A stretch of DNA of 48,389 nt, taken from the NCBI GenBank assembly GCA_944322285.1, contig CALUOR010000025.1:1-48389 (forward strand), read 5' to 3'. Below are positions 32,090 to 48,322 of this stretch, in pieces. Source of the DNA: an uncultured Bacteroides sp. (GTDB taxonomy: Bacteria; Bacteroidota; Bacteroidia; Bacteroidales; Bacteroidaceae). Both the position numbers and the translations under genes were made by a program. The stretch's first letter is position 1; the number at the start of each line of letters is the position of its first letter. Below the pieces are notes generated by a model that had not been told where the DNA came from, did no database searches, and worked only from the letters and a program-made list of their open reading frames with translations.

Positions 32090-32114
32090 CAAAGTTCAGA
32101 GGATGATGTGCCAA
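32090..32114 (-). promoter_or_regulatory. Shared TTGGCACA promoter module, W-repeat operon
   Basis: Minus strand: TTGGCACA (32114-32107), 12 nt, CTTTG (32094-32090). This is a -33-like TTTGG and a -7-like CTTTG with the spacing of a Bacteroidetes promoter. The same 25-bp layout recurs at 35264, 35340, 37553 and 45236. The start codon is 28 bp downstream. Confidence 0.65.
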
Positions 32115-32243
32115 ATTGGGGCACAAGATGATTTTTTATTTCATTTTAAGCATCAAAATGCTTGAACGTCTGAAATATCCTTATAAAAAAGTTGCGAAGA
32201 AAACAAAACGTCATCTCCGCAACTCTGATAAAAACGCTCACTC

Positions 32244-32444
32244 TTACTTCACTTCTTTAATATCAAAGCAAGTGAGGCTACACCCTCCCAGCAACTTAAT
32301 GCCATATTTCCGAACAAACGCCTCATCAATTTCCCGTATTACGGGCGGAGCGTTCGTCCCCGATTTTACTACTTCCACCCACATGCCGGGCACTACTTTT
32401 CCTGTCGCTTTCTTAGCTTCTACATGCCATAAATGTGTTACCAT
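32244..32444 (-). CDS. Small orphan protein, 66 aa
   Basis: MVTHLWHVEAKKATGKVVPG is the N-terminus, followed by a compact basic/beta-looking sequence ending CSLTCFDIKEVK. There is no signal peptide. It reads as a genuine small cytosolic protein: balanced composition, ATG start, and a location in an otherwise empty gap between two real genes. No family recognised. The flanking stretches 32115-32243 and 32445-32581 hold nothing else I can support. Confidence 0.55.
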   Translation of the reverse strand: MVTHLWHVEAKKATGKVVPGMWVEVVKSGTNAPPVIREIDEAFVRKYGIKLLGGCSLTCFDIKEVK

Positions 32445-32581
32445 AATGAATTTTATTTATTGGTTAATATTCGGCGACAAAGAAAATATAGAGGTGTGCA
32501 GAAATGAAGCAGAGGTTTAGGGAAAGAATGGGGTTAAGTTATTTTAACGCATACTACTTATGCAAATATAAAATAGAATCT

Positions 32582-32589
32582 TATATTTG
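32582..32589 (+). promoter_or_regulatory. -7 element before the first PD-(D/E)XK gene
   Basis: TATATTTG (TAnnTTTG), 32 bp before ATG 32622, in a very AT-rich leader. Confidence 0.55.
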
Positions 32590-32621
32590 TATATAATTAT
32601 AAATTTTAAAAATTTTATACT

Positions 32622-33932
32622 ATGAGTGAACATGATATATTTGAATTAACACAGACATTGAAAAAACTAAAAGAAAAGCTGCCTTACCACATCAATGTAA
32701 TTGATGCTCTTGGGGGAGCAAATGAAAATGCAAATACAAAAATATTCTGTAAGCTATTGAAGTATAAGACGGATGAGAATTATCCAATTCTGAATTCTTT
32801 TGTAAGTTTAATAAGAAACAAGTGTCCTAGTGCATCGTTTGTAATTAAAGACCCTCATATTGAATTTGGAAAAGAATATATTGACGGATTGATTGAAGAT
32901 AAAACAAAGGCTTATGGGGTCATTATCGAAAATAAAATTCATAATGCAAAAGATCAATATCGTCAAATAGAACGTTATATTAACACTGTAAATCAACATG
33001 GAGTCGCATATAAAAACATATATGTTGTCTATCTGACAAGAGATAACAATAAGGAGATAGAAAGTTATAGTTTAACCTCTATCGCAAAAGAGCATTTGAG
33101 CATAATGGGTAATGATAATGGACGTTTCATTCCATTGAATTATCGTGATGACATACTACCTTGGCTTAAAACAGAAATATTGCCAAATTGTAAAATCAAG
33201 GAGGATTGTTTGCGATCTGCAATAGAGCAATACATAGATTATCTTGAAGGAATATTTGAATTACGCAAATCAAAGGAGTCAAATGAAATTAATAGAATTA
33301 TGAAAGAACAGTTATATCAAAAATTAGGAATAACAGAGAACTCATCTCTTTCTGAGCAATATAATAAAGTTGCTGCGGAAACAAGTCTTTTGGAGCAGTT
33401 AAAACAAAGAATGCTACAAATTCAAGAAGGAATAAAAGGAATAATTATAAATAAAATTTGTGCACATTTTGAAGAAATAACTAAAGTTTTTTTTCAATCA
33501 GGTAATATGCGAAAGGTACATATAAAGAATGCTATTGAAGAAGGGAAGTACTTTTTTATCCATTATGAGGAATGGGGATGGAATGTGCATTTTGAATGGC
33601 ATCCTTTAAATATTAATAAGTTAGTAAATGGAAAAACATATACATTGCATTTGCATACGGAAGGAGAAAATAATTCTTTAAAGGCTAAATTATTGCAAGA
33701 TGAAGAATTCAAAAGGGTTACAAAAGGCATTGCTGATATTGATTTGCATGTAGATCACAAATATACTGTTTTCAAGAAAGATTATGAGGCAGATAAATCT
33801 TTTGCTGATATGACTTATGAACAGCAAAAGGCTTTTTTAGATGGAGCATATAAAGAAATCATGCCAATAGTTCCTATAATCGACCGATTATTAGGGATTT
33901 CTTTTAAAAAATGTAATAGTAATGACGATTAA
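32622..33932 (+). CDS. PD-(D/E)XK nuclease-superfamily protein (PDDEXK_4-like)
   Basis: 436 residues. The N-terminal third has the restriction-endonuclease-like core: D88 in YIDGLIED, then E103-N-K105 in VIIENKIHNAKDQ and the following QIERYI helix. This matches the PDDEXK_4 family, putative metal-dependent DNA nucleases often found in defence or mobile contexts. Residues about 210-280 are a coiled, charged helix, and the C-terminal part is beta-rich with no recognised domain. The gene is markedly AT-rich compared with the core genes, suggesting transfer. No methylase or helicase partner is adjacent, so it is not a classic restriction system. Substrate unknown. Confidence 0.8.
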   Translation: MSEHDIFELTQTLKKLKEKLPYHINVIDALGGANENANTKIFCKLLKYKTDENYPILNSFVSLIRNKCPSASFVIKDPHIEFGKEYIDGLIEDKTKAYGVIIENKIHNAKDQYRQIERYINTVNQHGVAYKNIYVVYLTRDNNKEIESYSLTSIAKEHLSIMGNDNGRFIPLNYRDDILPWLKTEILPNCKIKEDCLRSAIEQYIDYLEGIFELRKSKESNEINRIMKEQLYQKLGITENSSLSEQYNKVAAETSLLEQLKQRMLQIQEGIKGIIINKICAHFEEITKVFFQSGNMRKVHIKNAIEEGKYFFIHYEEWGWNVHFEWHPLNINKLVNGKTYTLHLHTEGENNSLKAKLLQDEEFKRVTKGIADIDLHVDHKYTVFKKDYEADKSFADMTYEQQKAFLDGAYKEIMPIVPIIDRLLGISFKKCNSNDD

Positions 33933-33978
33933 CATATATCTCTAATATACCGTGCTACAAAATGCATAAATTAAATCA

Positions 33979-34578
33979 ATGACCTTTCTCCATCTCTCCG
34001 ACACCCACAATCTGCATCGGCAGCTTACCAATTTGCCCGATGCAGATATCATTATCCATTCCGGAGATTTCACCATGGTTGGCACGGAACAGGAAGCAGT
34101 GGATTTTCTTAATTGGTTCTGTGATCTACCCTATCGGCACAAAATTTTTATTGCAGGAAATCATGACGAATGCTTGTACGGTGCAACGTTATCCGGATTG
34201 GATGAGAATTGCCATTACCTCTGCCATTCGGGCATCTGTATAGAAGGTTTGAATTTCTATGGAGTTCCGATGTTTGTAGGAGATGCCGTCAATGGAAGAG
34301 ACAAACGATTCATACAAGCAATCCCGATGGATACAGATGTGTTAATTACTCACCAACCTCCTCATGGTATTCTTGATTATGATGAGAACTATCATTACGG
34401 AAGCAATGATTTATGGCAAAAAATCAATTCCATTAAACCTAAATTTCATCTATTCGGGCATATTCATACTAATTACGGAATAAAGACTTGCAATGGAATC
34501 ACTTTCTCCAATGCCAGTATGATGGATGAAGGGTGTCTGCTGCATAAAGAGCGGATGAATGTACTCAACTTTAAATAA
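33979..34578 (+). CDS. Calcineurin-like metallophosphoesterase
   Basis: 199 residues with a full set of metal ligands: D8 and H10 (LSDTH), D30 (HSGD), N61-H62-D63 (AGNHDE), H125 (LITHQPPHG), and H161 and H163 (FGHIH). The fold is that of small cytosolic calcineurin-like phosphoesterases acting on nucleotides, RNA ends or phosphoproteins; which one is not readable. It follows the nuclease gene by 46 bp. A rearranged, stop-containing relic of the same gene lies at 36950-37035, showing that this gene has been duplicated and lost nearby. Confidence 0.88.
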   Translation: MTFLHLSDTHNLHRQLTNLPDADIIIHSGDFTMVGTEQEAVDFLNWFCDLPYRHKIFIAGNHDECLYGATLSGLDENCHYLCHSGICIEGLNFYGVPMFVGDAVNGRDKRFIQAIPMDTDVLITHQPPHGILDYDENYHYGSNDLWQKINSIKPKFHLFGHIHTNYGIKTCNGITFSNASMMDEGCLLHKERMNVLNFK

Positions 34579-34586
34579 TAAGATTA

Positions 34587-34626
34587 AGGAGTGCTAATCA
34601 CATATAACCTTATGTGAAGCACTCCT
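34587..34626. terminator. Bidirectional terminator between convergent genes
   Basis: AGGAGTGCT (34587-34595) pairs with 34618-34626, and an inner TCACATA (34598-34604) pairs with 34611-34617, with a 6-nt loop. Sixteen paired bases lie between the stops of the metallophosphoesterase and the 183-aa gene. Confidence 0.7.
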
Positions 34627-34631
34627 CACAT

Positions 34632-35183
34632 TTACCTACGCCTCCCTTCACGATATTCCGTAAAAAGGTCTATGCTTTCTACATTAAGAATGTCACATGC
34701 TGTATCATAAATGAGTTGATACTCATCATACATATCTGTTATATATTGCCTCATGGAATCTAAAGCGATGTATCCGGGAGAGTCTTTTTCTATATTTATA
34801 TTTAAACGCCTAAGCAAACAAATAAACAAATTATCGTCTTTATCTTCTTTCGATACCGCATTTAAGAAATCAATGACACGGTTAAAGTCATTCATTTGAT
34901 CTTCGTATAGGAATGTAACTCCCCATTTATCAGAATTAACCACTACTTCCACACGTTTGGATTTAACATATTGAGGCTGGGGTAATTCTACGACCTCTCC
35001 GGTAACAACATTTAGCTTTAAATAATTGCCAAAGAGCCGATGACTATAAATGATGTAGTCTTCGTCTACACAAATATCATCTTCTACATCTATACCAAGA
35101 TCTGTATCATTCTTAAAGCGTTTCGTTCCCATGGAACCACCGACTTCAATAAAGTCTGAATAGAACTTAATGTCTGTAATCAT
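34632..35183 (-). CDS. Orphan 183-aa acidic protein
   Basis: 183 residues, not recognised, cytosolic. The N-terminal half looks beta-rich (KFYSDFIEVGGSMGTKRF, YIIYSHRLFGNYLKLNVVTG), the C-terminal half helical, with a basic end (EYREGRRR). It could be an immunity-type or regulatory protein, but nothing in the sequence decides this. It is monocistronic: own terminator downstream, and upstream one arm of an inverted repeat carrying the shared TTGGCACA promoter module. That places it in the same putative regulon as rtcB and the W-repeat operon. Confidence 0.7.
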   Translation of the reverse strand: MITDIKFYSDFIEVGGSMGTKRFKNDTDLGIDVEDDICVDEDYIIYSHRLFGNYLKLNVVTGEVVELPQPQYVKSKRVEVVVNSDKWGVTFLYEDQMNDFNRVIDFLNAVSKEDKDDNLFICLLRRLNINIEKDSPGYIALDSMRQYITDMYDEYQLIYDTACDILNVESIDLFTEYREGRRR

Positions 35184-35263
35184 AATGTTGGATTTGAACT
35201 GTTATTTGTTATTCAATATTTGTAACTTTATTATATCAAGTATCTAATTCGAATTTTCAGGTA

Positions 35264-35288
35264 CAAAAGAAAATATTTGTTGTGCCAA
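35264..35288 (-). promoter_or_regulatory. Shared TTGGCACA promoter module, 183-aa gene
   Basis: Minus strand: TTGGCACA (35288-35281), 12 nt, TTTTG (35268-35264). The leader to the start at 35183 would be about 75 nt. The upstream flank on this strand, TCCTCCTCTGCC, resembles the flank of the rtcB copy. Confidence 0.65.
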
Positions 35289-35348
35289 ATCAAGGCAGAG
35301 GAGGAAAATTAGTCTGAGTTATTTCTCCTCTGCTGCAATTTGGCACAA
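35280..35348. repeat. Inverted repeat holding two divergent promoters
   Basis: TTGTGCCAAAT (35280-35290) is an 11-bp perfect inverted match to ATTTGGCACAA (35338-35348), and CAGAGGAG (35296-35303) to CTCCTCTG (35325-35332). Each arm is the upstream half of a promoter pointing outward. The symmetry may serve a dimeric regulator or result from duplication of a promoter. Confidence 0.8.
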
Positions 35349-35364
35349 GCAGTTTGTTTCTTTG
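35340..35364 (+). promoter_or_regulatory. Shared TTGGCACA promoter module facing the structured RNA locus
   Basis: TTGGCACA (35340-35347), 12 nt, CTTTG (35360-35364). It would start transcription near 35371, running into the structured region and the 76-aa gene. Confidence 0.6.
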
Positions 35365-35425
35365 CATCGCAAATGAATTTCTTTAAAAAAGGTGTGGAGT
35401 ATTTCTTTTCTTCCTTTTTTATTAT

Positions 35426-35433
35426 TACATTTG
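35426..35433 (+). promoter_or_regulatory. -7 element directly before the structured RNA
   Basis: TACATTTG (TAnnTTTG). The expected start, about 7 nt further on, is at the first base of the hairpin at 35439, which supports a defined RNA 5' end there. Confidence 0.6.
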
Positions 35434-35438
35434 CCGAT

Positions 35439-35700
35439 GGGCGAGCAAAATCTCGTCCAAGGACATAATAATTAGAGAAGAAGCGTTATGCTAATCTTGT
35501 AGTTTGGAAACCTAGGAAATTTTCAGATTGACACAAGAAGATGGCATAGTGGTTCTCACGCTATATGGCGTGGGCTGCTATACTCCACACTTGTGTTAAG
35601 GTTTTCCTAGGACCTCCAAACGATACGTGGCATGCAGTTCCACGCTTTGTGTTTAAAAGAGGTTCTTGAGGAACGGAAGAACCAAGACTTAAAATCATAC
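35439..35700 (+). ncRNA. Candidate structured RNA / long leader of the 76-aa gene
   Basis: Four hairpins are seen. First: 35439-35445 with 35452-35458. Second, a long arm: 35502-35508 with 35615-35621, then CCTAGGAAA 35511-35519 with 35603-35611, then 35528-35537 with 35590-35599 (one G-U), closed by CTCACGC 35555-35561 with 35568-35574. Third: CGTGG 35626-35630 with 35640-35644. Fourth: GGTTCTT 35661-35667 with 35677-35683. More than 30 bp of nested complementarity in the second element is far beyond chance. No open frame of note runs through it. It ends just before the ATG at 35705, so it could be a cis-regulatory leader or a separate RNA. I do not recognise a named family. Confidence 0.7.
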
Positions 35701-35704
35701 CGCT

Positions 35705-35935
35705 ATGTCACAAATGATTAAACGTGGGAAAGAACTGATTCGTATCTCTCCCAAATCTGCGACAAAAATTGAGTATTCAACGAATGACGGAAGAACATGG
35801 ATGCCACGCTACTCTTCCTCTATGTATGGAGATTTCGAGGATCTTATGGACAACGGCCGTGAAATCTTGGCACAGACCTCCAAAGGACTTTATTGCTCTA
35901 CCAATGAAGGAAGAACTTGGTTTAAACGTAGTTAA
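35705..35935 (+). CDS. 76-aa protein with two BNR-like S-T-N-x-G-R-T-W repeats
   Basis: 76 residues, cytosolic (no signal peptide). Two halves each end in the same motif: YSTNDGRTWMPRY at about residues 24-36 and CSTNEGRTWFKRS at the C-terminus. The motif S-x-D/E-G-x-T-W is the Asp-box of BNR/sialidase propellers, but two blades cannot make a propeller, so it may be a beta-hairpin binding module or part of an oligomer. It lies 4 nt after the structured RNA and 19 bp ahead of the second nuclease gene, with no terminator between them. Function unknown. Confidence 0.75.
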   Translation: MSQMIKRGKELIRISPKSATKIEYSTNDGRTWMPRYSSSMYGDFEDLMDNGREILAQTSKGLYCSTNEGRTWFKRS

Positions 35936-35954
35936 TTAAAAAAAGCACGTCAAT

Positions 35955-36929
35955 ATGAAAGTTAATATTTTCAAGTATGCTACAAGCGAACTAAGTCAAG
36001 ATGCGTTTCTATGCTGGTTGATAGCCAATAGTCATCCCCAATATGCCGAAAATGCAGATTTGTATAAAGCTGCCTGCGGCTTCGTATATTTCTTGATAAA
36101 CAGAAATGGAGAATGGGCATATGACAAACCTATTGAAGAAATAAAAGTTTTTAAGCAACAAAATCATGTGGATATAAGTTTTGTTGTCAATAAGGAGGTT
36201 AAAGTTATCATTGAAGATAAGACTGACACCGGTGCGCACAATGGGCAATTAGAAAGATATAAGAAAGACGAGGAGGAAAGATTGAAAGGCTCCCAGAAAC
36301 TGGTGTGCATCTATTTAAAGATCGGTAATGAAGCTCATTCATCTTTACGCGGAATAGAGAAAAAGGGTTATCGGGTTATTCTGAGAAAAGACATCTTGAA
36401 TGTATTGTCTCAATACGAAGTGAAGAACGATTTCTATATTGATTATGTTACTCACATCCAGGATTTGGAGGATAAGACGAACACTTACCTAAATGTTCCG
36501 TATGATAAATGGAAAGATTTGGCATGGCAAGGCTTTTATATGTCTCTTGAAGAACATCTGAAAAGGTCTTCTTGGAGCTATGTTTCAAATCCGGCTGGCG
36601 GTTTTTGGGGAATGTCTTGGTATTGGGCTCAGAAGTCTGACTGCATAATGTATTTACAGATTGAGAAAGGTGGTAAACTATGTATCAAGATAGAAATAAA
36701 AGATAAGGAAAATGCTTCAGCCATTAGGAATAAATGGCATAAAGACTTGATGAAACAATGCAAACTCTTGGGTTATAATGAGGTGTATAAACCTCAACGG
36801 TTTGGACTCGGGAAATGGATCACAATTGGTTGCATAGACCCCAAAGATTATATAGGTTCAGATATGTTTAGTCGCGATAGAATATTGAATAGCCTTAGGA
36901 AATATGAGAATTTAATAGACAAACTATAA
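35955..36929 (+). CDS. PD-(D/E)XK nuclease-superfamily protein (second copy)
   Basis: 324 residues. The N-terminal nuclease core shows LSQDAFLCWLI, D73 in HVDISFVVN and E87-D-K89 in VIIEDKTDTG, followed by GQLERYK with Q98. The layout matches PDDEXK_4-like proteins such as the one at 32622, though the rest of the chain differs, so they are distant relatives rather than recent duplicates. The C-terminal domain is W-rich (WGMSWYWAQK), with a helical end. It is likely co-transcribed with the 76-aa gene and under the structured leader. A DNA or RNA nuclease in a defence or repair role is inferred only. Confidence 0.78.
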   Translation: MKVNIFKYATSELSQDAFLCWLIANSHPQYAENADLYKAACGFVYFLINRNGEWAYDKPIEEIKVFKQQNHVDISFVVNKEVKVIIEDKTDTGAHNGQLERYKKDEEERLKGSQKLVCIYLKIGNEAHSSLRGIEKKGYRVILRKDILNVLSQYEVKNDFYIDYVTHIQDLEDKTNTYLNVPYDKWKDLAWQGFYMSLEEHLKRSSWSYVSNPAGGFWGMSWYWAQKSDCIMYLQIEKGGKLCIKIEIKDKENASAIRNKWHKDLMKQCKLLGYNEVYKPQRFGLGKWITIGCIDPKDYIGSDMFSRDRILNSLRKYENLIDKL

Positions 36930-36949
36930 ATAGACCATTCTCTATCTTT

Positions 36950-37035
36950 GACTATGGCGGCAACTATCATTACGGAAGTGAAGATTTATAGCAGAAAATC
37001 AATTCCGTGAAGCCGATTGGATGAGAATTGTCATT
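36950..37035 (+). pseudogene. Scrambled relic of the metallophosphoesterase gene
   Basis: 36950-37015 reads DYGGNYHYGSEDL, then a TAG stop at 36989-36991, then QKINSVKP. It aligns with residues 133-154 of the intact gene (34375-34440), where the TAG position is tryptophan TGG. It is followed directly at 37016-37035 by 20 bases matching 34197-34216 with one change, which lie further upstream in the intact gene. The order is therefore inverted relative to the gene: a rearranged remnant, not a truncated copy. Confidence 0.8.
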
Positions 37036-37530
37036 TTGTCACTTCTGACACTTTGTATTTCCTAATCGCTGAGAATCGCTTGTTTCGGACTGAAGGACAA
37101 GTTAAACAGAAAGAACGAATTTTGAAAGTGTTTATTGGTTCACTTTCAGCGAGATGCAATGACTTTTATCGGAATATTTACAAATTCCAGAAGCGCATTT
37201 TTCCGGATTTAAAAGGTTTATTAAAGCAGATTTCACAGTTTTTAGCAAAGTTATGAGAAGCTTCCGTTGAGTCAGCGAACTGTTTGCTCTCAGCCAGCGA
37301 ACTGTTTGCTCTAAAATAGCGTGCTGTTAGTACCATAACACTTAACTAACTCAAAGCAAATTGTGCGCTGACTCAGAAACAAGCATTTTTACCCCTTTCT
37401 AGTTTACGAATTTTTTCAAAATGGCGAGTAAGTCAAATGGATGAAATTGTAGAATTTTGATAGCTATTCGGACTATATGTTTTTCAAATTGCTATTTATC
37501 ACCTATACATTTCTCGAATGGGCCATAATT
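37036..37530. other. Decayed intergenic stretch without intact genes
   Basis: About 500 bp between two pseudogene relics. A short frame at 37017-37256 begins within the metallophosphoesterase relic and has no family resemblance. The only structure seen is the 18-bp direct repeat at 37273-37312. Confidence 0.6.
37273..37312. repeat. 18-bp direct repeat, two copies
   Basis: CAGCGAACTGTTTGCTCT occurs at 37273-37290 and again at 37295-37312, identical, with a 4-bp gap. It lies within the decayed stretch between two pseudogene relics. Confidence 0.8.
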
Positions 37531-37690
37531 ATTTCTCAACTTGTGCTTCATTTTGGCACTACATACACTTTATTTTGCGGTGGAAATAACGTTAAACTTA
37601 GTATATTGCAACATGGAAACAATAGAAAACTATGACGTGAAGATATTGACCATTACCTATAAGCAGATTTAAGAAATAGATTGGACTTTT
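37531..37690 (+). pseudogene. Relic of a second rtcB promoter and 5' end
   Basis: From ATTTCTC at 37531 through TTGGCACT at 37553-37560 (then 12 nt and TTTTG at 37573-37577) and GCGG...AACGTTAAACTTA, the sequence follows the region upstream of rtcB at 45213-45290. ATG 37613 opens METIENYDVKI, against MKTIENYNVKI in RtcB; after a short divergent stretch it hits TAA at 37670-37672, where KQI aligns with EQI of RtcB residues 22-24. The rest of the ligase gene is gone. It retains the shared promoter module. Confidence 0.8.
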
Positions 37691-37782
37691 CGTTTTTGAC
37701 AAAACTATTCACTATTTTTGTAAGCCAAAGAATAATTCAATGGGAATTGCTCGGTATTCCCAAGTACTTGCGACTAATATGC

Positions 37783-37790
37783 TAATTTTG
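37783..37790 (+). promoter_or_regulatory. -7 element before the DUF1016 gene
   Basis: TAATTTTG (TAnnTTTG), 17 bp before ATG 37807. A small hairpin TGGGAAT/ATTCCCA lies just upstream at 37741-37762. Confidence 0.5.
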
Positions 37791-37806
37791 AATATATTTA
37801 TGGAAA

Positions 37807-38529
37807 ATGAGGAACAACGATAACAATATAGAGAAAAGAAGTTTTGAGGCTTTCGGCAACGCCATCGGTTCAGAAATAGAGCAGGCGCAAGTCAGGCTCA
37901 TCAGTGCAGCTAATGCGCAGATGCTGTTCCACTACTGGAAGATGGGTAATTACATATTGTACCATCAGAACCGACAAGGTTGGGGCGGCAAGGTCATCAA
38001 GAAACTGGCGCAGGCGATACGGTTCAATTATCCGGAAAAGAAAGGATATTCGGTCAGGAACTTGGCTTATATGTGCCAGTTCGCGCGTTCATACCCATTG
38101 GCCGCATTACAGAGTTTTATAGAAACTGATATGAAATTACTTACTCCAAGTGTACAGAAAATCACGGACGAAATCCAAAGCCTAAACAATGTTTCATTTA
38201 CGCAAGAACCTCTTGCGCAAATTCAATCCTCAGACAACAAGGAAGTTGCAATTGTGCAAGAACCTCTTGCACAAATTCAAGATGTAGCTCAGACAGTAGC
38301 CGCCGTTTATCGGATGCCAATTGAGGACATGGAAAAACTGTTTTTGGCATCACCTGTGGCAAGAATCAATTGGGCAAGCCATGTGATTATGCTCAACAGT
38401 TCACTTCCATTGGGCGTGGAATACTGGTATATGAAGCAATCCGTAGAAATGGGATGGAGTAGCAATGTCTTGAAAATGCAGATTGAAAGCAAATTGTACG
38501 AAAGACGGTACACTTTGAAAACAAATTAA
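37807..38529 (+). CDS. DUF1016/YhcG-like protein lacking its C-terminal nuclease domain
   Basis: 240 residues. Residues about 15-110 match the DUF1016 N-terminal domain (NAQMLFHYWKMGNYILYHQ, GWGGKVIKKLAQAIRFNYPEKKGYSVRNLAYMCQFA, the key part being YSVRNLAYMCQF). Residues about 190-235 match the next conserved block (WASHVIMLN, YWYMKQSVEMGWSSNVLKMQIES, LYERR). Full-length YhcG proteins continue for some 120-150 residues with a PD-(D/E)XK nuclease domain; here a stop follows LYERRYTLKTN, and the downstream DNA does not encode that domain in any frame. It is therefore probably a truncated, possibly inactive gene. The linker contains a duplicated QEPLAQIQ segment. Confidence 0.75.
   Translation: MRNNDNNIEKRSFEAFGNAIGSEIEQAQVRLISAANAQMLFHYWKMGNYILYHQNRQGWGGKVIKKLAQAIRFNYPEKKGYSVRNLAYMCQFARSYPLAALQSFIETDMKLLTPSVQKITDEIQSLNNVSFTQEPLAQIQSSDNKEVAIVQEPLAQIQDVAQTVAAVYRMPIEDMEKLFLASPVARINWASHVIMLNSSLPLGVEYWYMKQSVEMGWSSNVLKMQIESKLYERRYTLKTN
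38202..38280 (+). repeat. 25-bp near-perfect direct repeat inside the DUF1016 gene
   Basis: Copies at 38202-38226 and 38256-38280 differ at one base and encode QEPLAQIQ twice. Each contains the small inverted repeat GCAAG-N5-CTTGC. Confidence 0.8.
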
Positions 38530-38580
38530 ACCACCGTGTGCCGAACGGTATGTATGGTGATGTGGGAGGAAAAGGAACGA

Positions 38581-38616
38581 AAGTAGGTCAAAAAACTTTC
38601 GTTTCCCAACCTACTT
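38581..38616. terminator. Possible bidirectional terminator
   Basis: AAGTAGGT (38581-38588) pairs with ACCTACTT (38609-38616), between the convergent DUF1016 and DUF805 genes. T-rich tails are only moderate on both strands. Confidence 0.4.
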
Positions 38617-38634
38617 GATAACCTTTCTATCAAT

Positions 38635-39267
38635 CTACTTATATAACGGTGATGGCCCGTATTTATTTTCACCATTAAATGATTTTGTTATGGGCCAAAT
38701 GAACATCACGATGAGCGCGGTTAAATTGCATGCCAAGGCGACCATAAAGAGATATTCCCCAATATCTGATTCCACATTATTTGCAAGTGGCAGTATTGAA
38801 ACTGAATAAATACATGGAATAATAATCCATAAAAGGTTCCAGCCACTTTTATTCATATCATGGAAGCGGCGTACTGTCACTGCCAAGGTAGGAGTAATCG
38901 TAACTACAAATATCAACATGTTAAGAACATAGACATCTGCCTGAGTAATCCACGAAAAGTAAGATAGAAGCCATACGAATACGCCTAATGACAAAGTGAA
39001 TAGTAAGAAATACCAATATTCTGCACGTCGAGCCCGGCCTTTAAAAGTTGCGTATTTTTTGAAGCAGGTGCCAATAGCTTCTCCAAATCCCATGTGATAA
39101 GCAACTTTTATAGGTATCCCGCAATGAGGACATGTCAAAGCTTCATGAGGAATAGGCTTGCCACATTCTTTACATACTACTGCTTCAACCGAAGCACCAC
39201 ACTGAGGGCAGCGAAGCGCTTTATCGGATATTGTTGCACCACATTCTTGACATTTAATCAGAGCCAT
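38635..39267 (-). CDS. Double zinc-ribbon DUF805 membrane protein
   Basis: 210 residues from ATG 39267 (MALIKCQECG, the usual start, with GGAG upstream). Two zinc ribbons lead: C6/C9 with C20/C23, and C32/C35 with C46/C49. A DUF805 domain follows (from FKGRARRAEYWYF, about residue 75), with about four membrane helices and RRFHDMNKSGWNLLW, the family's signature. Inner membrane; function unknown, often in stress or transport contexts. An ATG at 39282 is also possible, and the open frame extends upstream into the preceding lipoprotein gene. It is the last gene of the minus operon running from 44357. Confidence 0.88.
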   Translation of the reverse strand: MALIKCQECGATISDKALRCPQCGASVEAVVCKECGKPIPHEALTCPHCGIPIKVAYHMGFGEAIGTCFKKYATFKGRARRAEYWYFLLFTLSLGVFVWLLSYFSWITQADVYVLNMLIFVVTITPTLAVTVRRFHDMNKSGWNLLWIIIPCIYSVSILPLANNVESDIGEYLFMVALACNLTALIVMFIWPITKSFNGENKYGPSPLYK

Positions 39268-39289
39268 AGTTTGTTTCTCCATATTTTTA

Positions 39290-39631
39290 TTATTCAAAAT
39301 CTTTAATTTGCCATACGAACCGGAAGCCATCGTACACCACTTCCAAAGGGTACTTTTCTTCACTGCCATATTCGCCAATACAGGTTTTTACCGTTACAAA
39401 GCCGCTATAATTGTTTCCCTGTTTGTGAACCAAATCCACACTTTTCACCTCAATGAAGCTGTTTACATCCGCCGCTTCCCATAGTGTACCCAGCGCATCG
39501 TAACTTCTCTCCTTCTCAATAGTTTCCGTAATGTTCTTTTTTACTGCTTCCTCCAATGCTTTCGTGGAAAGCCTGCACGATGTAAGGATGAATAGAAGCG
39601 CAATGAATGCTAATAAATATTTCTTTTTCAT
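39290..39631 (-). CDS. Small lipoprotein, 113 aa
   Basis: 113 residues with a lipoprotein signal (MKKKYLLAFIALLFILTSC). The mature part has a helical start (LSTKALEEAVKKNITETIEKER) and a beta-rich end (YSGFVTVKTCIGEYGSEEKYPLEVVYDG, of which the key part is SGFVTVKTCIGEYG). It resembles small NTF2- or cystatin-like periplasmic proteins in pattern only; no family claimed. It sits between the pseudoprotease lipoprotein and the DUF805 protein in one operon. Confidence 0.75.
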   Translation of the reverse strand: MKKKYLLAFIALLFILTSCRLSTKALEEAVKKNITETIEKERSYDALGTLWEAADVNSFIEVKSVDLVHKQGNNYSGFVTVKTCIGEYGSEEKYPLEVVYDGFRFVWQIKDFE

Positions 39632-39743
39632 GACATAATGGATTTGTAACTGTTAGTATTAAGGGTTAATTACACTATCTGCAATGTTTCCCATAGTTAT
39701 TTTTATTAAAACTGATGATTAACTTTTTCTTCTATTGGTTTAC

Positions 39744-40655
39744 CTACAAAGTCCTGAGATTAATACCTTGAACTCCATCTTGAGACTCATTGATGATGCC
39801 TGCTATTTCCCCATTCTGGTTGATAATGAGGTTGCCGTTCCTGCCTTTTGCCTCGCCTGATGGTAAAGGTATATAAAGTTCATTTATGCTCTTGTCTTCA
39901 AACTTGCTACTCATGGTGGGCATGGGTAGTTGAGCGTTTAAGTCTGTTACTCCTTCATAGCCAATGACATACAGTTCCCGTTTCCCTTCGAAAAGCTTCT
40001 TTATTTGTTTTAAGACGGGATTACTATGGTCTGCCTGGGCAGTCAAGGGGAAAATATAGGCATCCGGTATGTCTTCATACATATGCAACTTGGCATATGG
40101 CAAATCTGAAGAATCGTCCAATAGTTCTACGCTGGCAAAGATTTGATTATGGGTTTCCGGGTGCATGTGCTTTGCCCGGTATTCCGAGTGCGGGATAATT
40201 TCCCATTTTCCTGTTTCCAAGGCTCCAATAGCTTGGTTTAGCTGTTGTAACTTGGCGTACTCACTCAATGAGAACTCAATGTCTATCGATAACTTTAACC
40301 ATTCCCGTGAGGCCTTATAATTTGTCAGTAGTATGTCGCGAAGCTTTTGTTTGTCTATCGGTGGCACGGTTACTACATTTCGACTAGTCAAGATGGTGTC
40401 GTTTGAAACGAGAGCCCCCGTACCGTATGTCTTAGCCTTATCTACTGTCTCACTCGGATTGTAAAACCTATTTGTTAAGGGGCTGAATAAGGTTGATACG
40501 CTCCCCATACGTATTTCGTAGTAAAAAGAATGTTCTATGCAGACAAGCCCAGGAGCGCAAATCTCATAAAGTTCTTTTTCACTCTTCTCACAAGCTGTCA
40601 GGATAGTCATACTGACAACGAGAAACATGGCTTTTATAATCAGTTTATCTTTCAT
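39744..40655 (-). CDS. Trypsin/HtrA-like lipoprotein with mutated catalytic residues (pseudoprotease)
   Basis: 303 residues, lipobox LTAC (C22). The chain follows an HtrA-type serine-protease layout: YGTGALVSNDTILTSRNVV matches the pattern GTG-x-hydrophobic-ILT-x-x-H-VV, but the catalytic histidine is N93. SSDLPYAKL keeps an aspartate at the expected place (D184). Near the C-terminus GRNGNLIINQNGEIAGI matches G-x-S-G-x-hydrophobic-N-x-x-GE-hydrophobic-GI, but the serine is N273. Two of three triad residues are thus lost, so it is likely a binding or regulatory protein rather than an enzyme. No PDZ domain. It is in the middle of the secreted operon. Confidence 0.72.
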   Translation of the reverse strand: MKDKLIIKAMFLVVSMTILTACEKSEKELYEICAPGLVCIEHSFYYEIRMGSVSTLFSPLTNRFYNPSETVDKAKTYGTGALVSNDTILTSRNVVTVPPIDKQKLRDILLTNYKASREWLKLSIDIEFSLSEYAKLQQLNQAIGALETGKWEIIPHSEYRAKHMHPETHNQIFASVELLDDSSDLPYAKLHMYEDIPDAYIFPLTAQADHSNPVLKQIKKLFEGKRELYVIGYEGVTDLNAQLPMPTMSSKFEDKSINELYIPLPSGEAKGRNGNLIINQNGEIAGIINESQDGVQGINLRTL

Positions 40656-40700
40656 TATTGGTTTCTAATTAATAATGTGGTCAATGCGTTTTCTTAATAA

Positions 40701-41723
40701 TCATTCTTTAGGCGTCGGATAAGACAGGTATTCCGTTAATCCCTTTTCCGTTATTGTCACACGTAGAGGATAGTAAGAGTAAGGTAGGCCTATGTCCGGA
40801 TCTGTCACGCAATCAAATTGCCAACACCAGACAGAATCTTCTTTTACCAAATCATACTTGCGTATGTCCGGTTTCCAGCCTTTTTGGAGTAATTCTCCCG
40901 GATTAGGAAGGTGGTTGTCTATAATCCTTTCCCGAATTAAATTCATCAACTTATCTTGCTTTTCCGGTAGAAAGATGTCATCAAACCCCATCACCTTCTG
41001 CTTTTCTAAGCTGTAAAAGAACGCACTTTCATAATAACAATGCGCTGTTGGGCAAGTAATTTCTGTGGCATTTACAGTTAACCACCCGCGATCCGTATCG
41101 TAGTCACAACTTATTTTCATGGAATAATTGTCTGCAAAATTTTCTTCTTGCACTATCCTCCGGGCAGCTCCTTTGAAGTCAAAGTTTTCTTCTTCTTCCT
41201 TTAATACTTTTTCTCCATTAGATAAAAGTTGAGCACCTGAAAAATACCTTTCAAACAATTCTTTATAAAATCCCGTTAGGTCATAGTTCCCTACTTCTAT
41301 CGGGTACGTCATACTGAAATTTCGCCGATAACTCCGTTCTAAGTCTTCATACCAAACATCATTTTTCATCCATATACGGTCATAAACCACGTGAACACTG
41401 CGGTTCGTAAATAGATAATACCCGATGCCCGCTAACAGTAGGATAGCCACAATGCCACCTGCCTTCCACATCCACTTCCCTTTACCTCGTTTAGGTACAT
41501 TGAGGTGAGCAGACGTGTTTGCGGCATATCCTCTTTCAGTACGTTCTTGCGTTGTAGAAAACTGGGATGATGCCATTTCCTGCTCCCGTTTTTCTTGTTT
41601 GTCCATAAATTCTCGATGTGCCTTCTTTATGTCTTCAATGTCATTTTCCGAGATTTTCGGGCTTCCTTTGGCTTGTTGTAAGGCTTTCATTGCCTCAATG
41701 TGTGCTTTCTCAAATTTTCCCAT
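40701..41723 (-). CDS. Single-pass membrane protein, DUF3298-like periplasmic domain
   Basis: 340 residues. A charged cytosolic region (residues 1-80, with helix EKAHIEAMKALQQAKG) precedes one membrane helix (about 87-106, AGGIVAILLLAGIGYYLF) and a periplasmic domain. The latter contains SMTYPIEVGNYDLTGFYKELF and the segment KVMGFDDIFLPEKQDKLMNLI, similar to DUF3298/RsiV-type domains, where F-x-L-x-D-L-F is typical. RsiV proteins are anti-sigma factors, but no such partner is seen here. The neighbours are secreted proteins of the same operon, so an envelope-sensing role is plausible. Confidence 0.6.
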   Translation of the reverse strand: MGKFEKAHIEAMKALQQAKGSPKISENDIEDIKKAHREFMDKQEKREQEMASSQFSTTQERTERGYAANTSAHLNVPKRGKGKWMWKAGGIVAILLLAGIGYYLFTNRSVHVVYDRIWMKNDVWYEDLERSYRRNFSMTYPIEVGNYDLTGFYKELFERYFSGAQLLSNGEKVLKEEEENFDFKGAARRIVQEENFADNYSMKISCDYDTDRGWLTVNATEITCPTAHCYYESAFFYSLEKQKVMGFDDIFLPEKQDKLMNLIRERIIDNHLPNPGELLQKGWKPDIRKYDLVKEDSVWCWQFDCVTDPDIGLPYSYYPLRVTITEKGLTEYLSYPTPKE

Positions 41724-41741
41724 AATGCTTTCCGGTTATAT

Positions 41742-43223
41742 TTATTTAATAATGCCAGTCAGTCTTCCATTGGTGAATGTCAGTTGACTTGGATTTCCGT
41801 AATCCACTCCGAACAGGCCGCCAATCTGATTAATAAACAGCATGGTCATTAAGCCTTCTTTGCCTTCCTTCCGTGCAACAGTTTCAGCCATATTGTCCTC
41901 ATTAAAAGTCCATACTTCTACTTTATTTCCGGATACGATAAATTGGTCGCGGTCAAAGAAATCCTTGTCCCAGACTTCGTTGACCATTTCTATTGTCATG
42001 CCTAATTCTAATTCTCCTTGTGAAATTAATGTACCGTAATGTTCTCCGTATTTGGTAATGAGTTGTTTCCGTCGAGCCGTTTTTCTCCTTTCTTGTTCTT
42101 GCTTTTCCTGCAACTCTGCTAATCTTTGTTGTTGTTCTTCTTTCTTCATTCTTTTGGCCTCAGCTAACTCCTGTTGTTTACGTGCGGCTTTATCACGAAT
42201 CGTTGTCGGGCTATCTCCTTCTTTGTAAAGAGTAGTCCAATCTTCCTCTCTGAGTCCGTACCGTTTGAGCCAATCGCCTTGGGCTACTGTCCCGTCAGTA
42301 AAAGTCATGGTGCCTTGAGTCGGAATATGAACTGTTCCATTCCGGCTGTCCCAGAAGATATCTTCATACGTGCCGTTGAAAGTTTCTCCGGTAACATATT
42401 TGTATATTCCTTGGGTCGGAATGACATCCTTTGAATTCAATTTTATGTTTCCATTGAATTGGTTTCTGTTTTTGAATAATATATTTACAGGCGTTTCTTT
42501 CTGTTCAATATGGAGCAGGCAGTTGTATATCATATCTCCTTCAGTCTGTTGGTTGAAGAAAACATTTTCCGCCCCTTCTTCACGTATCTTTTCTATGAGG
42601 AAATCCCTTGATATTTCGCATGTTATCTTTTCGATTTTATTGCTCATGAATCTTATTTCCAATTGATAATTTGTACTTTTATCCCGACTTTCCCCAGATA
42701 GTGTAGCTGTGTTTGTTTCAACGAAAAACTCCTGTATATTAATAGGTCTTATGCCATTTCCGGTACCATAAACAAGGAATGTACCTTTATACATACTCAT
42801 TCCTTTGGGGTACCATTTCCCTTTAACGTAAGGTATTCCATTCATTGTAAAATAAGTACCTTGTAGAAGCGGTTGCAGTGATGTAACGGGGAGCATTTTA
42901 TTTTCGCCTGTCACGTAGTATTCACCTTTCTTCTTTTTCACTTTGTATTTCTCTGCGTTATGCAGTTTGAAAAATTCAACCTTTTGGTTTTCTACAAATT
43001 GCTCTTTGTAGCGGTAGCCCATGCCCACCATATCGGCGTTTTTATAAAGCACAGCTTCCATTTTAGCCTTCCGTGGAAGTTGATCGGTCGCTTGTCCCCA
43101 TAAGGGGAGTGGGGCAAGGAACGATAGAGTAATTAGGAAAAGTAGGGCACCTGATAATATACCCGAAATGTTTCTTTGAAATCTCCGGATTGTAGTGTCT
43201 TGTAATCTATTATGTGTATTCAT
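41742..43223 (-). CDS. Secreted MORN-like repeat protein with coiled coil
   Basis: 493 residues from ATG 43223 (MNTHNRLQDT); the frame opens 4 codons earlier only at a TTG. An N-terminal signal/anchor (about residues 22-46, ending LWGQ) is followed by beta-rich repeats with MORN-like units (YVTGETFNGTYEDI, GTMTFTDGTVAQGDWL, about 272-321), a charged coiled coil (about 341-386, KEEQQQRLAELQEKQEQERRK), and a C-terminal domain with KYGEHYGTLISQGELELGMT and MVNEVWDKDFF, a pattern seen in SmpA-like domains. Probably periplasmic. The stop of the upstream gene lies 12 bp before its start. Confidence 0.72.
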   Translation of the reverse strand: MNTHNRLQDTTIRRFQRNISGILSGALLFLITLSFLAPLPLWGQATDQLPRKAKMEAVLYKNADMVGMGYRYKEQFVENQKVEFFKLHNAEKYKVKKKKGEYYVTGENKMLPVTSLQPLLQGTYFTMNGIPYVKGKWYPKGMSMYKGTFLVYGTGNGIRPINIQEFFVETNTATLSGESRDKSTNYQLEIRFMSNKIEKITCEISRDFLIEKIREEGAENVFFNQQTEGDMIYNCLLHIEQKETPVNILFKNRNQFNGNIKLNSKDVIPTQGIYKYVTGETFNGTYEDIFWDSRNGTVHIPTQGTMTFTDGTVAQGDWLKRYGLREEDWTTLYKEGDSPTTIRDKAARKQQELAEAKRMKKEEQQQRLAELQEKQEQERRKTARRKQLITKYGEHYGTLISQGELELGMTIEMVNEVWDKDFFDRDQFIVSGNKVEVWTFNEDNMAETVARKEGKEGLMTMLFINQIGGLFGVDYGNPSQLTFTNGRLTGIIK

Positions 43224-43235
43224 AAGTTTGTTCAA

Positions 43236-44357
43236 TTAATCAGTTGGGTCAAAACGCTTGAGAAGATAACCATCGTATAGTTGCCAATTCATTTCTCCGT
43301 CTTCTAATTCATGACTTAACTTCAAGTAAACAATATCTCCGCTTTTCATGGTATTTACAGGAGTTTCTATTATACGGCATTTGGCAACGATTTTTTTATC
43401 TCTTAATACGATATCTACACATCTATAATGGGTGTATGAAGGTATTAGTGCTTTAGCGAAATCGTAGCCGACGTATTGTTGTTTGAGGTAATTGAGGTGA
43501 TTTTCCGTGATATATTCAGTCCAATTCCAAGTGCGTTCTGAAGAAACCAGATATTCTTCCCCATGTTCATTTGCAATAAGGAATATTGGTAACTCTTTTG
43601 ATATACTATATGTTCTGTGTTCATCTATGAGGGTATCTCCTTTAACGGTTTGGGAGAAAACTGTTTCCCCATCATCTGTCTGGGTTATAAACAGATGAGA
43701 TAAACTTTGAAGTTCATCCCAATCTCTTTTCCCTTCCATTTTCTTCTTGATTTTTTGTAATTTCTTTTGCATGTCGAGAGGAAGTTCTGCAGGGTGCATA
43801 TTGTTATCGTCAAGTATTTGGCTAGCTTCCCATGGCGTTAATACATTTACTAAGGTGAAGAATTGTTTGCTATAGTATTCTTCTTTTATCTTACTTGTGC
43901 AATTACCTTCAACTCCGTAGCTGGTCTCATTCAGATATACACTCTGAATAGCGTCTCCCCTTGTGTAAATATTCCGTATGGTGTATGTCGTTTTTTTCTT
44001 TTTCCCTATAAAATTTTCTTTGCCTGTAAATGTTTGTGTAAAAGGCTGATGAAGTCTTATGATATGCGGTTTGATAGGTTGGAAACCGATTGCTCCAGCA
44101 TAAAAAAGGATCCTTTGTCCAATGAAAGCTTTATAGTATTCAATTTGTGCATCAAGGGATGTGTCATAATCGTTGCGACTAATATCCGTAGGAAAGTAAA
44201 TGTTTGTACTTCCATCGGTTTTAGGTGTAACTTTTTTTATTTCCACCTTGTCATCAGCACTGTTTTCAATAGAAATCTGTGCTTTCCCATATCCGGAAAA
44301 AGTCATAAAAGCGACCAACAACAAGCCGCTTTTGACAAAAAATGATATTTGTTTCAT
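43236..44357 (-). CDS. Exported orphan protein, first gene of the secreted operon
   Basis: 373 residues from ATG 44357 (MKQISFFVKSGLLLVAFMTF), signal peptide ending YGKAQ. The mature part is beta-rich, with no recognised catalytic motif; segments such as FTQTFTGKENFIGKKKKT and VSSERTWNWTEYITENHL are only descriptive. The open frame extends upstream to 44414, but that part overlaps a terminator hairpin and lacks a signal peptide. It starts the run 43236, 41742, 40701, 39744, 39290, 38635, all same-strand and closely spaced. Function unknown. Confidence 0.72.
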   Translation of the reverse strand: MKQISFFVKSGLLLVAFMTFSGYGKAQISIENSADDKVEIKKVTPKTDGSTNIYFPTDISRNDYDTSLDAQIEYYKAFIGQRILFYAGAIGFQPIKPHIIRLHQPFTQTFTGKENFIGKKKKTTYTIRNIYTRGDAIQSVYLNETSYGVEGNCTSKIKEEYYSKQFFTLVNVLTPWEASQILDDNNMHPAELPLDMQKKLQKIKKKMEGKRDWDELQSLSHLFITQTDDGETVFSQTVKGDTLIDEHRTYSISKELPIFLIANEHGEEYLVSSERTWNWTEYITENHLNYLKQQYVGYDFAKALIPSYTHYRCVDIVLRDKKIVAKCRIIETPVNTMKSGDIVYLKLSHELEDGEMNWQLYDGYLLKRFDPTD

Positions 44358-44365
44358 AACGATGT

Positions 44366-44420
44366 GATAAAAAGGCTTCTTCGCCGGTATGGTATAAGGC
44401 TGAAATCCCGGCAAAGAAGC
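44366..44420 (-). terminator. Intrinsic terminator of the 117-aa gene
   Basis: GCTTCTT-c-GCCGG (44375-44387) pairs with CCGGC-a-AAGAAGC (44408-44420): 12 bp with one mismatch. On the minus strand it is followed by CTTTTTTATC. It separates the 117-aa gene from the secreted operon. Confidence 0.8.
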
Positions 44421-44433
44421 GTGAGTTAGACTT

Positions 44434-44787
44434 TTATTTGCTTCTCTCGGAATAAGACTGGATGAGGTTGCTGTGCGGATTGTCTTTGATAACTCCCGTA
44501 CTGACTAATTGGAAATGTTCGGCAAGCAGTTTGGAAATCTGGCTGTTGACTGCCTGCAGGTTGCCGGAAGCGGCTACCGTGTCCAAATACATTTTCGTCA
44601 AATCTTTGTCCGACTGAACGAACAGGAAGAACAGATCGGTAATTTCGTGCTCTACCTTATCTTCAAAACGGGGAAGAGCCGCATCCATGAAAGTTTTTAC
44701 TTCACTCATAGCGCTGATGTTTTGTGTCCTTGCAGATTCCCCAACCCGGACGGGTTTATCATGTTTTTTTAGTGAAGGCTTTGGCAT
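44434..44787 (-). CDS. Orphan 117-aa helical protein behind a structured leader
   Basis: 117 residues, cytosolic, mostly helical. A basic N-terminus (MPKPSLKKHDKPVRVGESAR) is followed by MSEVKTFMDAALPRFEDKVEHEI, DLFFLFVQSDKDLTKMYLD and a polar C-terminal helix with NSQISKLLAEHF. I do not recognise a family; a small DNA- or RNA-binding or toxin-antitoxin-like partner is possible but not shown. It is monocistronic: its own promoter about 320 bp upstream, a long structured leader, and a strong terminator after it. Confidence 0.72.
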   Translation of the reverse strand: MPKPSLKKHDKPVRVGESARTQNISAMSEVKTFMDAALPRFEDKVEHEITDLFFLFVQSDKDLTKMYLDTVAASGNLQAVNSQISKLLAEHFQLVSTGVIKDNPHSNLIQSYSERSK

Positions 44788-45100
44788 ATAAAGAAAAAGC
44801 GCGGGAATCTGTACCTGTTACTCGTCCCACGCATTGAGGCCTTCGCATTGCCCATCGTAGTCAAGACGAGCAACGCAGAAGCCCACGCCGATATGTATAA
44901 TGACTCAATGCACCCATGGCAAAAGGATACACTGAGGGCATAAACATATCCCGCAGACATCTACCGCTGCCTTGTCTTTTGACTACGATTAAAAGTTGCG
45001 AAGTTTCAATGCGTCAAAGACAAAACGTCAAGTAAACGTCTTTCTTTATATGTCCGTTTCCCGCCCGCCCGGCTTCTGCAAAAGAAGCTTGGCTACAGGA
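44788..45100 (-). ncRNA. Candidate structured RNA leader with pseudoknot potential
   Basis: Read on the minus strand, a small hairpin with arms GCTTC/GAAGC (45088-45072) comes first. Then TGACTACGAT-type arms at 44989-44980 and 44863-44854 pair perfectly over 10 bp. A second pairing joins 44911-44904 and 44838-44831 (CTCAATGC/GCATTGAG, 8 bp). The two pairings interleave (44989-44980 with 44863-44854 encloses only one arm of the other), which is the arrangement of a pseudoknot. GCGTTGC/GCAATGC-like arms lie inside. There is a short frame within (44769-44960) but no sign that it is translated. The RNA would end at the 117-aa start codon. Confidence 0.6.
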
Positions 45101-45107
45101 AACACTG

Positions 45108-45115
45108 CAAAGTTA
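45108..45115 (-). promoter_or_regulatory. -7 element of the structured leader
   Basis: Minus strand TAACTTTG (TAnnTTTG). Transcription would start near 45100, just before the first hairpin, as at the 35.4-kb locus. Confidence 0.6.
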
Positions 45116-45235
45116 AATAAAAATTTGACATTCTTGCACAATAAGTGGAGAAAATAAAAAATGAATGATAAATGCCTTCTGCTTAACATAATGAACAAGC
45201 ATTGCTTACAATAATTTCTCAGCCTCTGCTTCATT

Positions 45236-45260
45236 TTGGCACAACATATACTTTATTTTG
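45236..45260 (+). promoter_or_regulatory. Shared TTGGCACA promoter module, rtcB
   Basis: TTGGCACA (45236-45243), 12 nt, TTTTG (45256-45260); ATG 45297 is 36 bp further. The upstream flank ATTTCTC...CCTCTGCTTCATTT is shared with the relic at 37531 and, more loosely, with the right arm of the inverted repeat at 35321-35339. Confidence 0.65.
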
Positions 45261-46594: not shown

Positions 46595-46602
46595 TACCTT
46601 TG
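46595..46602 (+). promoter_or_regulatory. -7 element before the WYL gene
   Basis: TACCTTTG (TAnnTTTG), 24 bp before ATG 46627, so the WYL and exonuclease genes can be expressed apart from rtcB. Confidence 0.6.
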
Positions 46603-48128: not shown

Positions 48129-48184
48129 CTATCTGCAACGAACCCGGTTCACTTCGTTTTTAGACATACGGAAGTCGCCGATAA

Positions 48185-48322
48185 AGAGTATATATACTCT
48201 CGCATAAAGACTATATATACTCTTACGTTGACACTTTATATACTCTTGCATCGACACTTTATATACTCTTGCATAAAGAGTATATATACTCTTTGGCACA
48301 GACTTTATATAGTTGTCTTTTC
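48185..48322. repeat. 23-bp tandem repeat array, five full copies plus one degenerate
   Basis: Units start at 48185, 48208, 48231, 48254, 48277 and 48300, exactly 23 bp apart. The core is TATATACTCT with variable ends (AGAG or ACAC at the start; CGCATAA, GCATCG or TTGGCAC at the end). Because 23 is not a multiple of 3, a reading frame through it repeats every 69 bp; a minus-strand frame (48371-48129) therefore looks like a repetitive peptide and is probably not a gene. The repeats are close to palindromic (AGAGTATATATACTCT). Confidence 0.85.

Follow-up and report, generated by a model that had tools for sequence, protein, structure and literature searches.

What controls the genes of an accessory region in which one promoter-like sequence keeps recurring? 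The question is raised by a 48,389-nt stretch of DNA from an uncultured Bacteroides sp. (contig CALUOR010000025.1; the whole stretch is called the window below). A preliminary description had noted that an octamer, TTGGCACA, followed after exactly 12 nt by YTTTG, is found there five times, ahead of rtcB, which encodes the RNA ligase RtcB, and of other genes. A gene for a WYL regulator (wyl) lies next to rtcB. We report here that the repeated sequence is half of a palindromic switch, most likely belonging to the neighbouring stress-sensing regulator and controlling the RNA-ligase gene together with changing partner genes in gut bacteria.

Six copies of a dyad promoter in the window

Scanning the window with TTGGCACA-N12-YTTTG recovered the five sites, four without mismatch, at 32090-32114 (-), 35264-35288 (-), 35340-35364 (+) and 45236-45260 (+), and one with a single mismatch, at 37553-37577 (+). 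When up to two mismatches were allowed, 9 matches were counted in the window against 3.1 expected, a number reached by 1 of 100 shuffles. Across the whole genome (the assembly of the window, GCA_944322285.1, 3.70 Mb in 99 contigs, about 90% complete), TTGGCAC-N13-YTTTG was present 8 times, 5 of them within the window, and the reversed pattern once.

At every window site an upstream half-site was also found, the arrangement being T[C/G]TGC, 7 nt, TGGCAC. The unit is thus a 19-bp imperfect dyad, TRTGCY-N7-GGCAYA, followed after 12-13 nt by YTTTG, and its clearest copy lies at 32107-32125. The initial suggestion that GGCACA belongs to an operator was right as far as it went, but the element was incomplete, consisting of the downstream half of the dyad with the upstream half missed. 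A sixth copy, absent from that description, lies at 32478-32513 (-); it has 2 mismatches to the original pattern and is exact to a widened one, TSTGC-N4-WTTYKGCAC-N13-YTTTG. This widened pattern was fitted to the six window sites, its Y and K being widened once the sixth was known (without this widening, 5 sites are exact and the sixth has 1 mismatch). At up to two mismatches it yielded 7 matches in the genome, compared to 3 for the control: 6 exact ones, all in the window, and one elsewhere with 2 mismatches. With this fitted pattern, the six exact sites span 13.2 kb and there is no exact site elsewhere in 3.7 Mb. The proposal of a promoter module recurring above random expectation is therefore upheld. 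The six sites are as follows.

32090..32125, minus strand: dyad TGTGCCCCAATTTGGCACA (32107-32125), 12 nt and CTTTG, before the W-repeat gene; exact match to both patterns
32478..32513, minus strand: sixth dyad, TCTGCTTCATTTCTGCACA, 12 nt and CTTTG, before a 66-aa gene; exact to the widened pattern
35264..35299, minus strand: dyad and TTTTG before a 183-aa gene, one member of a divergent pair (pattern scans)
35329..35364, plus strand: dyad and CTTTG upstream of a structured RNA and a 76-aa gene, the other member of the divergent pair (pattern scans)
37542..37577, plus strand: dyad and TTTTG before an rtcB relic (pattern scans); homologous to 45225-45260
45225..45260, plus strand: dyad and TTTTG before rtcB (pattern scans); kept before rtcB or the W-repeat gene in relatives

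The gap between TTTG and the start codon is 27 nt for the W-repeat gene, 33 for the 66-aa gene, 80 for the 183-aa gene, 35 for the relic, 36 for rtcB and 340 for the 76-aa gene, whose RNA leader begins about 70 nt past the TTTG of its dyad site. A placement 15-120 bp from a gene or RNA start, as first described, thus holds for the genes (27-80 nt) and for the RNA, and not for the ATG of the 76-aa gene. The supposed homology of the relic and rtcB sites was borne out by alignment, which showed a common promoter and common first codons.

One further window match with 2 mismatches, TTGACAAA-N12-TTTTG at 37696-37720 (+) before a DUF1016 gene, resembles an ordinary promoter and has no dyad.

Dyads accompany WYL and RtcB loci in relatives

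RtcB relatives at E <= 1e-60 were found in 19 of 158 genomes of the genus. All 10 loci with an RtcB at least 81% identical (L052-L061) carried a dyad and YTTTG before rtcB or before a W-repeat gene leading the operon. RtcB was also found on plasmids, in 92 records, every one below 60% identity. In relatives wyl is often divergent, with its own reverse copy of the dyad. A position weight matrix built from 18 sites was then applied, at a threshold of at least 15, to 884 kb of WYL, RtcB and 76-aa loci. It detected 71 dyads, including the 18 training sites, versus 5, 4 and 1 when the sequence was Markov-resampled. The 83 kb of loci L001-L029, with 10 sites, did not serve as a control, since these loci had been picked by the motif itself.

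For an independent test, named genomes were searched with the WYL alignment. The 75 loci obtained came from Bacteroides, Phocaeicola, Prevotella, Parabacteroides, Porphyromonas and Muribaculaceae, among others. From these, 26 loci already seen and the partial loci L224, L232 and L233 were removed. A dyad scoring at least 10 within 160 nt upstream of wyl was present in 15 of 23 new loci when the WYL protein was at least 60% identical, in 4 of 18 at 49-59% and in 0 of 5 below 40%, compared to 12 of 834 random windows of the same loci. The WYL regulator beside rtcB, named early on as a candidate controller, is the best candidate.

Whole genomes were also scanned with one pattern. The 18 genomes that carry a close WYL and/or RtcB had 29 exact matches and, with one mismatch allowed, 58 (control, 11), versus 2 exact matches and, with one mismatch allowed, 13 (control, 15) in 18 other genomes of the genus. 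A strict form, TATGCC-N7-GGCATA-N12/13-YTTTG, gave 1 match in 198 genomes of the order (control, 0) and was too strict for use.

A genus-wide promoter class was rejected, as the exact sites of the window's genome all lie in the window and genus genomes without WYL stand at control level. The dyad module is a predicted local regulon of the WYL/RtcB island, not a general promoter.

Two of the 18 other genomes, G144 and G037, carry a distant WYL homolog, and the exact dyad of G144, one of the 2 exact matches just mentioned, lies 1.4 kb upstream of it. Exact dyads in G289 (contig 16, 48909-48944, minus strand) and G144 (contig 1, 2589506-2589541, minus strand) each lie 1.4-1.6 kb upstream of a WYL homolog that is about 42% identical, hinting at an operator type that may be common to a wider WYL group.

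Position of the dyad in the promoter

Promoters of B. thetaiotaomicron are reported, in the source passages that treat them, to have elements centred at -7 and -33. Positions were reckoned from YTTTG, placed at the end of the -7 element, and from the published element centres. The dyad is then centred at about -29/-30, and TTTGG at about -26, that is 6-7 nt off the reported -33 centre. It is the upstream part of the dyad that occupies the -33 place, where all six window sites lack TTTG; the TA of TAnnTTTG is likewise missing from all of them. The fit to -33 and -7 spacing read from the original sites is thus kept for YTTTG, which fits the 3′ part of the -7 element, and abandoned for TTTGG. A canonical sigma-ABfr -33/-7 promoter was rejected for these same reasons. 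The sigma-54 consensus is TTGGCAC-N5-TTGC; a sigma-54 promoter was also rejected, TTGC being at the required spacing in none of the six window sites.

Spacing is nearly invariant: YTTTG lies exactly at +12/+13 in 63 of the 71 matrix-detected dyads, and at no other offset below 36. Among 127 non-redundant sites, which are not independent of each other, dyad positions 2 and 18 covary, A going with T and G with C (Fisher p 0.0015). The 7-nt-spaced pseudo-palindrome (127 non-redundant sites), the constant distance to the -7 and the dyad lying over a poor -33 are all features of the DriD type. DriD, in the passages describing it, has the consensus ATACGAC-X7-GTCGTAT over the -35, always at the same distance from the -10, and activates poor promoters on binding single-stranded DNA (PMC12340889).

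Genes behind the dyads

About a dozen gene families follow dyads, across several Bacteroidales families, so that the early estimate of some three independent occurrences was too cautious. They comprise WYL, RtcB, W-repeat, DUF6557-like (below the Pfam cut-off), DprA-like (PF02481), DUF6847, AAA+ ATPases, DnaQ-type exonuclease, a 121-aa family, DUF6140, 66-aa proteins, and the 76-aa and 183-aa genes. By automatic assignment, the start codon is at most 40 nt from the -7 element in 61 of 74 cases. The uncharacterised genes among them are candidates for RNA-repair or stress functions.

Neighbours of wyl were counted up to 5 kb away in 72 named loci, previously seen loci included. DnaQ was found in 53 of them, RtcB in 18, the W-repeat gene in 16, a 698-aa AAA+ protein in 11, the DUF6557-like gene and a metallophosphoesterase in 10 each, and the 76-aa gene in 9. 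By these counts WYL-DnaQ is the core, with RtcB as one among several partners.

A probable WYL activator and its alternatives

The regulator has a WYL domain (PF13280, E 1.7e-12) and a C-terminal WCX domain (PF25583, E 1.8e-8), both above cut-off. A profile of it matched 7 Protein Data Bank entries, including 8tp8 (E 6.5e-6), over the C-terminal part only; according to a literature passage, 8tp8 is the structure of DriD.

We consider it probable, with some reserve, that the WYL-WCX regulator beside rtcB binds the dyad and activates the RtcB/exonuclease island. The protein, probably as a dimer, would bind the 19-bp imperfect palindrome centred near -29/-30, thereby covering the place where the main sigma factor needs a -33 element, 12-13 nt before a weak -7. 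A ligand, which by family precedent may be a single-stranded nucleic acid or a fragment of one, would bind the WYL domain, and the ligand-bound protein would hold RNA polymerase at promoters whose -33 is missing and whose -7 is poor. In this way the protein would act mainly as an activator, switching on RtcB, the W-repeat protein and small accessory proteins, and in relatives also WYL itself with the DEDDh exonuclease, the DprA-like protein and AAA+ ATPases. The sites, their dyad form and fixed spacing, their concentration in WYL/RtcB loci and the genes that follow them are observed, and binding, activation, a ligand and a role in nucleic-acid damage are what we infer. Activation is favoured over repression because the dyad lies over an absent -33 at a constant distance from a weak -7, as in DriD.

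Several observations weigh against this activator. Less similar RtcB loci (L062-L068 and L044) have a dyad in 1 case of 8, L064, a weak one before a W-repeat gene, and 27 of the 46 new WYL loci fall below threshold, several of them having weaker half-sites by eye. L052 and L060 have dyads and no WYL within the DNA examined, both genomes being incomplete. The wyl gene of the window itself is not preceded by a dyad. Overall symmetry of the half-sites did not exceed shuffled pairing (195 of 2000) among the 127 non-redundant sites. Concerning the protein, no Pfam helix-turn-helix match corresponding to an N-terminal DNA-binding domain or winged helix-turn-helix was obtained at E <= 0.1, and a single-sequence search of the Protein Data Bank gave no match.

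The same WYL protein could instead be a BrxR/CapW-like repressor, sitting on the dyad over the -33, blocking RNA polymerase and leaving upon ligand binding. As described in passages on it, BrxR is a repressor that binds inverted repeats upstream of the gene encoding it (PMC9122601); the dyad found before wyl in many relatives would suit autorepression too, and an operator covering a promoter can block transcription. Repression does not, however, require the constant spacing seen in 63 of the 71 dyads, and the six window promoters, without -33 TTTG or the TA of TAnnTTTG, are seemingly too weak to need it. We regard a repressor as unlikely.

Judging by the sites and their distribution, it is highly improbable that TTGGCAC and YTTTG form the two-part promoter of an alternative sigma factor, or the target of an unlinked regulator, with WYL merely a neighbour. 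Two conserved elements at a fixed spacing are typical of a sigma factor, B. thetaiotaomicron is described as having a second class of promoters, whose elements lie at -10 and -30, and the sites of L052 and L060 would also fit. Nevertheless the upstream half-site is conserved and covaries with the downstream one at one position, as expected for a dimer, and the sites accompany WYL in the new loci, while genomes without WYL stay at control level (13 versus 15). That the recurrence is merely duplicated promoter DNA, with no specific regulator, is hardly tenable and largely refuted: the relic and rtcB sites are truly duplicated and two others form a divergent pair, yet about a dozen gene families, in several Bacteroidales families, have a dyad before them, dyads recur in loci outside those that defined them, and the spacing data speak against it as well.

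Returning to the WYL activator, a broader reading is possible, although we hold it only tentatively. In Bacteroidales, a damage-sensing WYL activator of the DriD type would govern a modular regulon that combines RNA repair (RtcB, W-repeat protein) with the processing of DNA ends (DEDDh exonuclease, DprA-like protein, AAA+ ATPases). Such an activator would be the counterpart of RtcR in this phylum, and in this genome would also control the RNA leader and small proteins. If true, activation in the manner of DriD would reach to the unusual promoter of the Bacteroidota as well. A candidate WYL operator of clear geometry before rtcB opens a direct route to the signal to which Bacteroidales respond with RNA repair, and now that a regulator and an operator are named, together with about a dozen families as candidate targets, binding, activation and ligand become accessible to standard assays.

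Genes of the island

30983..31543, minus strand: 186-aa gene downstream of the W-repeat gene; homologs adjoin the 66-aa homolog in L059 and L142 (neighbourhoods); no match in Pfam, PADLOC or NCBIfam
31547..32062, minus strand: W-repeat protein, 171 aa, first gene of the rtcB operon in several relatives; sub-threshold Pfam match only
32244..32444, minus strand: 66-aa gene, whose homologs in L059 and L142 lie downstream of rtcB and have a dyad-like site each (relatives' loci)
34632..35183, minus strand: 183-aa gene; weak nSTAND3 match below the Pfam cut-off
35705..35935, plus strand: 76-aa BNR-like gene, near WYL or DnaQ in part of its relatives (neighbourhoods)
37613..37651, plus strand: rtcB relic that keeps roughly the first dozen codons and continues as unrelated sequence (alignment)
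45297..46571, plus strand: rtcB, RNA ligase, 424 aa; Pfam PF01139, E 1.3e-58
46627..47589, plus strand: WYL-WCX regulator, 320 aa, downstream of rtcB (PF13280, PF25583); preceded by TACCTTTG at 46595-46602
47577..48128, plus strand: DnaQ-type DEDDh exonuclease, 183 aa, adjoining wyl in many relatives (profile matches)

The island also holds a metallophosphoesterase gene (33979-34578, plus strand), which matches the PADLOC candidate defence family PDC-S10 (E 3.8e-73). It has no dyad directly upstream in the window, and its homologs lie near rtcB or wyl in several relatives. Two genes resembling PD-(D/E)XK nucleases, at 32622-33932 and 35955-36929 (+), match PF14281, the second just under cut-off. 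Past the exonuclease gene, at 48170-48320, AT-rich repeats with units like TATATACTCTTGCAT end in TTTGGCACA without the other half of the dyad.

A separate structured RNA family

35434..35704, plus strand: structured RNA leader before the 76-aa gene, family core 35486-35657 (fold, covariance model)

This leader has its own -7-like element, TACATTTG, at 35426-35433, and folds strongly (z -5.9). A covariance model built from five sequences matched 68 of 295 genomes of the order, in 51 of 183 genera, with up to nine copies per genome, and 2 of 147 other genomes in a sample of the phylum. The window's genome (G000) has six copies, in the window and on contigs 36, 37, 16, 13 and 7. Over 50 matches, in a model-fitted alignment that includes 4 weak opposite-strand rows, 91.6% of cells were paired and 35 of 47 pairs showed double changes; a MAFFT alignment of the five sequences showed them in 12 of 47. 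The outer helix was altered on both sides and still paired in two copies, and these two compensated cases alone count, since the letter patterns used for the outer-helix count nearly force pairing. No match was obtained in Rfam 15 for the window RNA stretch at E <= 1, nor for ten other loci at E <= 0.5.

Many copies start a short way past a -7-like element and stop some 40-50 nt ahead of the ATG of the next gene; these genes are varied, and many of them have, by eye, signal-peptide-like starts. The RNA belongs to a large multi-copy Bacteroidales family, seemingly a 5′ leader of varied, often secreted, proteins. That it is a general product of the dyad regulon was rejected: of the six genome copies, the window one only has a dyad near it. 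The RNA family is a discovery separate from the dyad regulon.

Comparison with known systems

The systems below are compared through the passages that describe them. Sigma-ABfr promoters of Bacteroides share with the present ones a YTTTG fitting the 3′ part of the -7, and differ by the -33 TTTG and the TA of TAnnTTTG, both lacking here in all six (PMC7366714). Control of RtcB is described for sigma-54/RtcR operons; these rtcBA operons likewise place the RNA ligase under ligand-responsive control, but RtcR is a sigma-54 activator with CARF and AAA+ domains, whereas a WYL regulator and no sigma-54 spacing are found here (PMC4012209). Among the papers listed by a literature search, none describes WYL control of rtcB in its title or abstract opening.

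An inverted repeat before the own wyl gene, of the BrxR/CapW type, is present in many relatives and not in the window. CapW is reportedly a WYL regulator with inverted repeats before its own gene, located in defence islands. BrxR resembles the present system in the same respects, but is a repressor, and a fixed spacing to the -10 is no feature of it in the passages concerned (PMC9122601). The mycobacterial PafBC proteins are WYL proteins too, which act through a -26 motif and enable the housekeeping polymerase to work at promoters that lack the usual -35; they differ in being a heterodimer with a single motif instead of a dyad (PMC11804915).

The closest likeness is to DriD: a pseudo-palindrome with a 7-nt spacer over the -35/-33 place at a constant distance from a weak -10/-7, WYL and WCX domains, and nuclease genes among the targets (PMC12340889). 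The half-site letters and the sigma factor differ, and RtcB and many uncharacterised accessory genes are predicted targets here. DriD and the Bacteroides WYL protein have weak sequence similarity, limited to the C-terminal part, and activation and ligand are proposed here by analogy. What is most likely new is a putative WYL regulon whose promoters have a DriD-like geometry, occur in another phylum and include that of rtcB.

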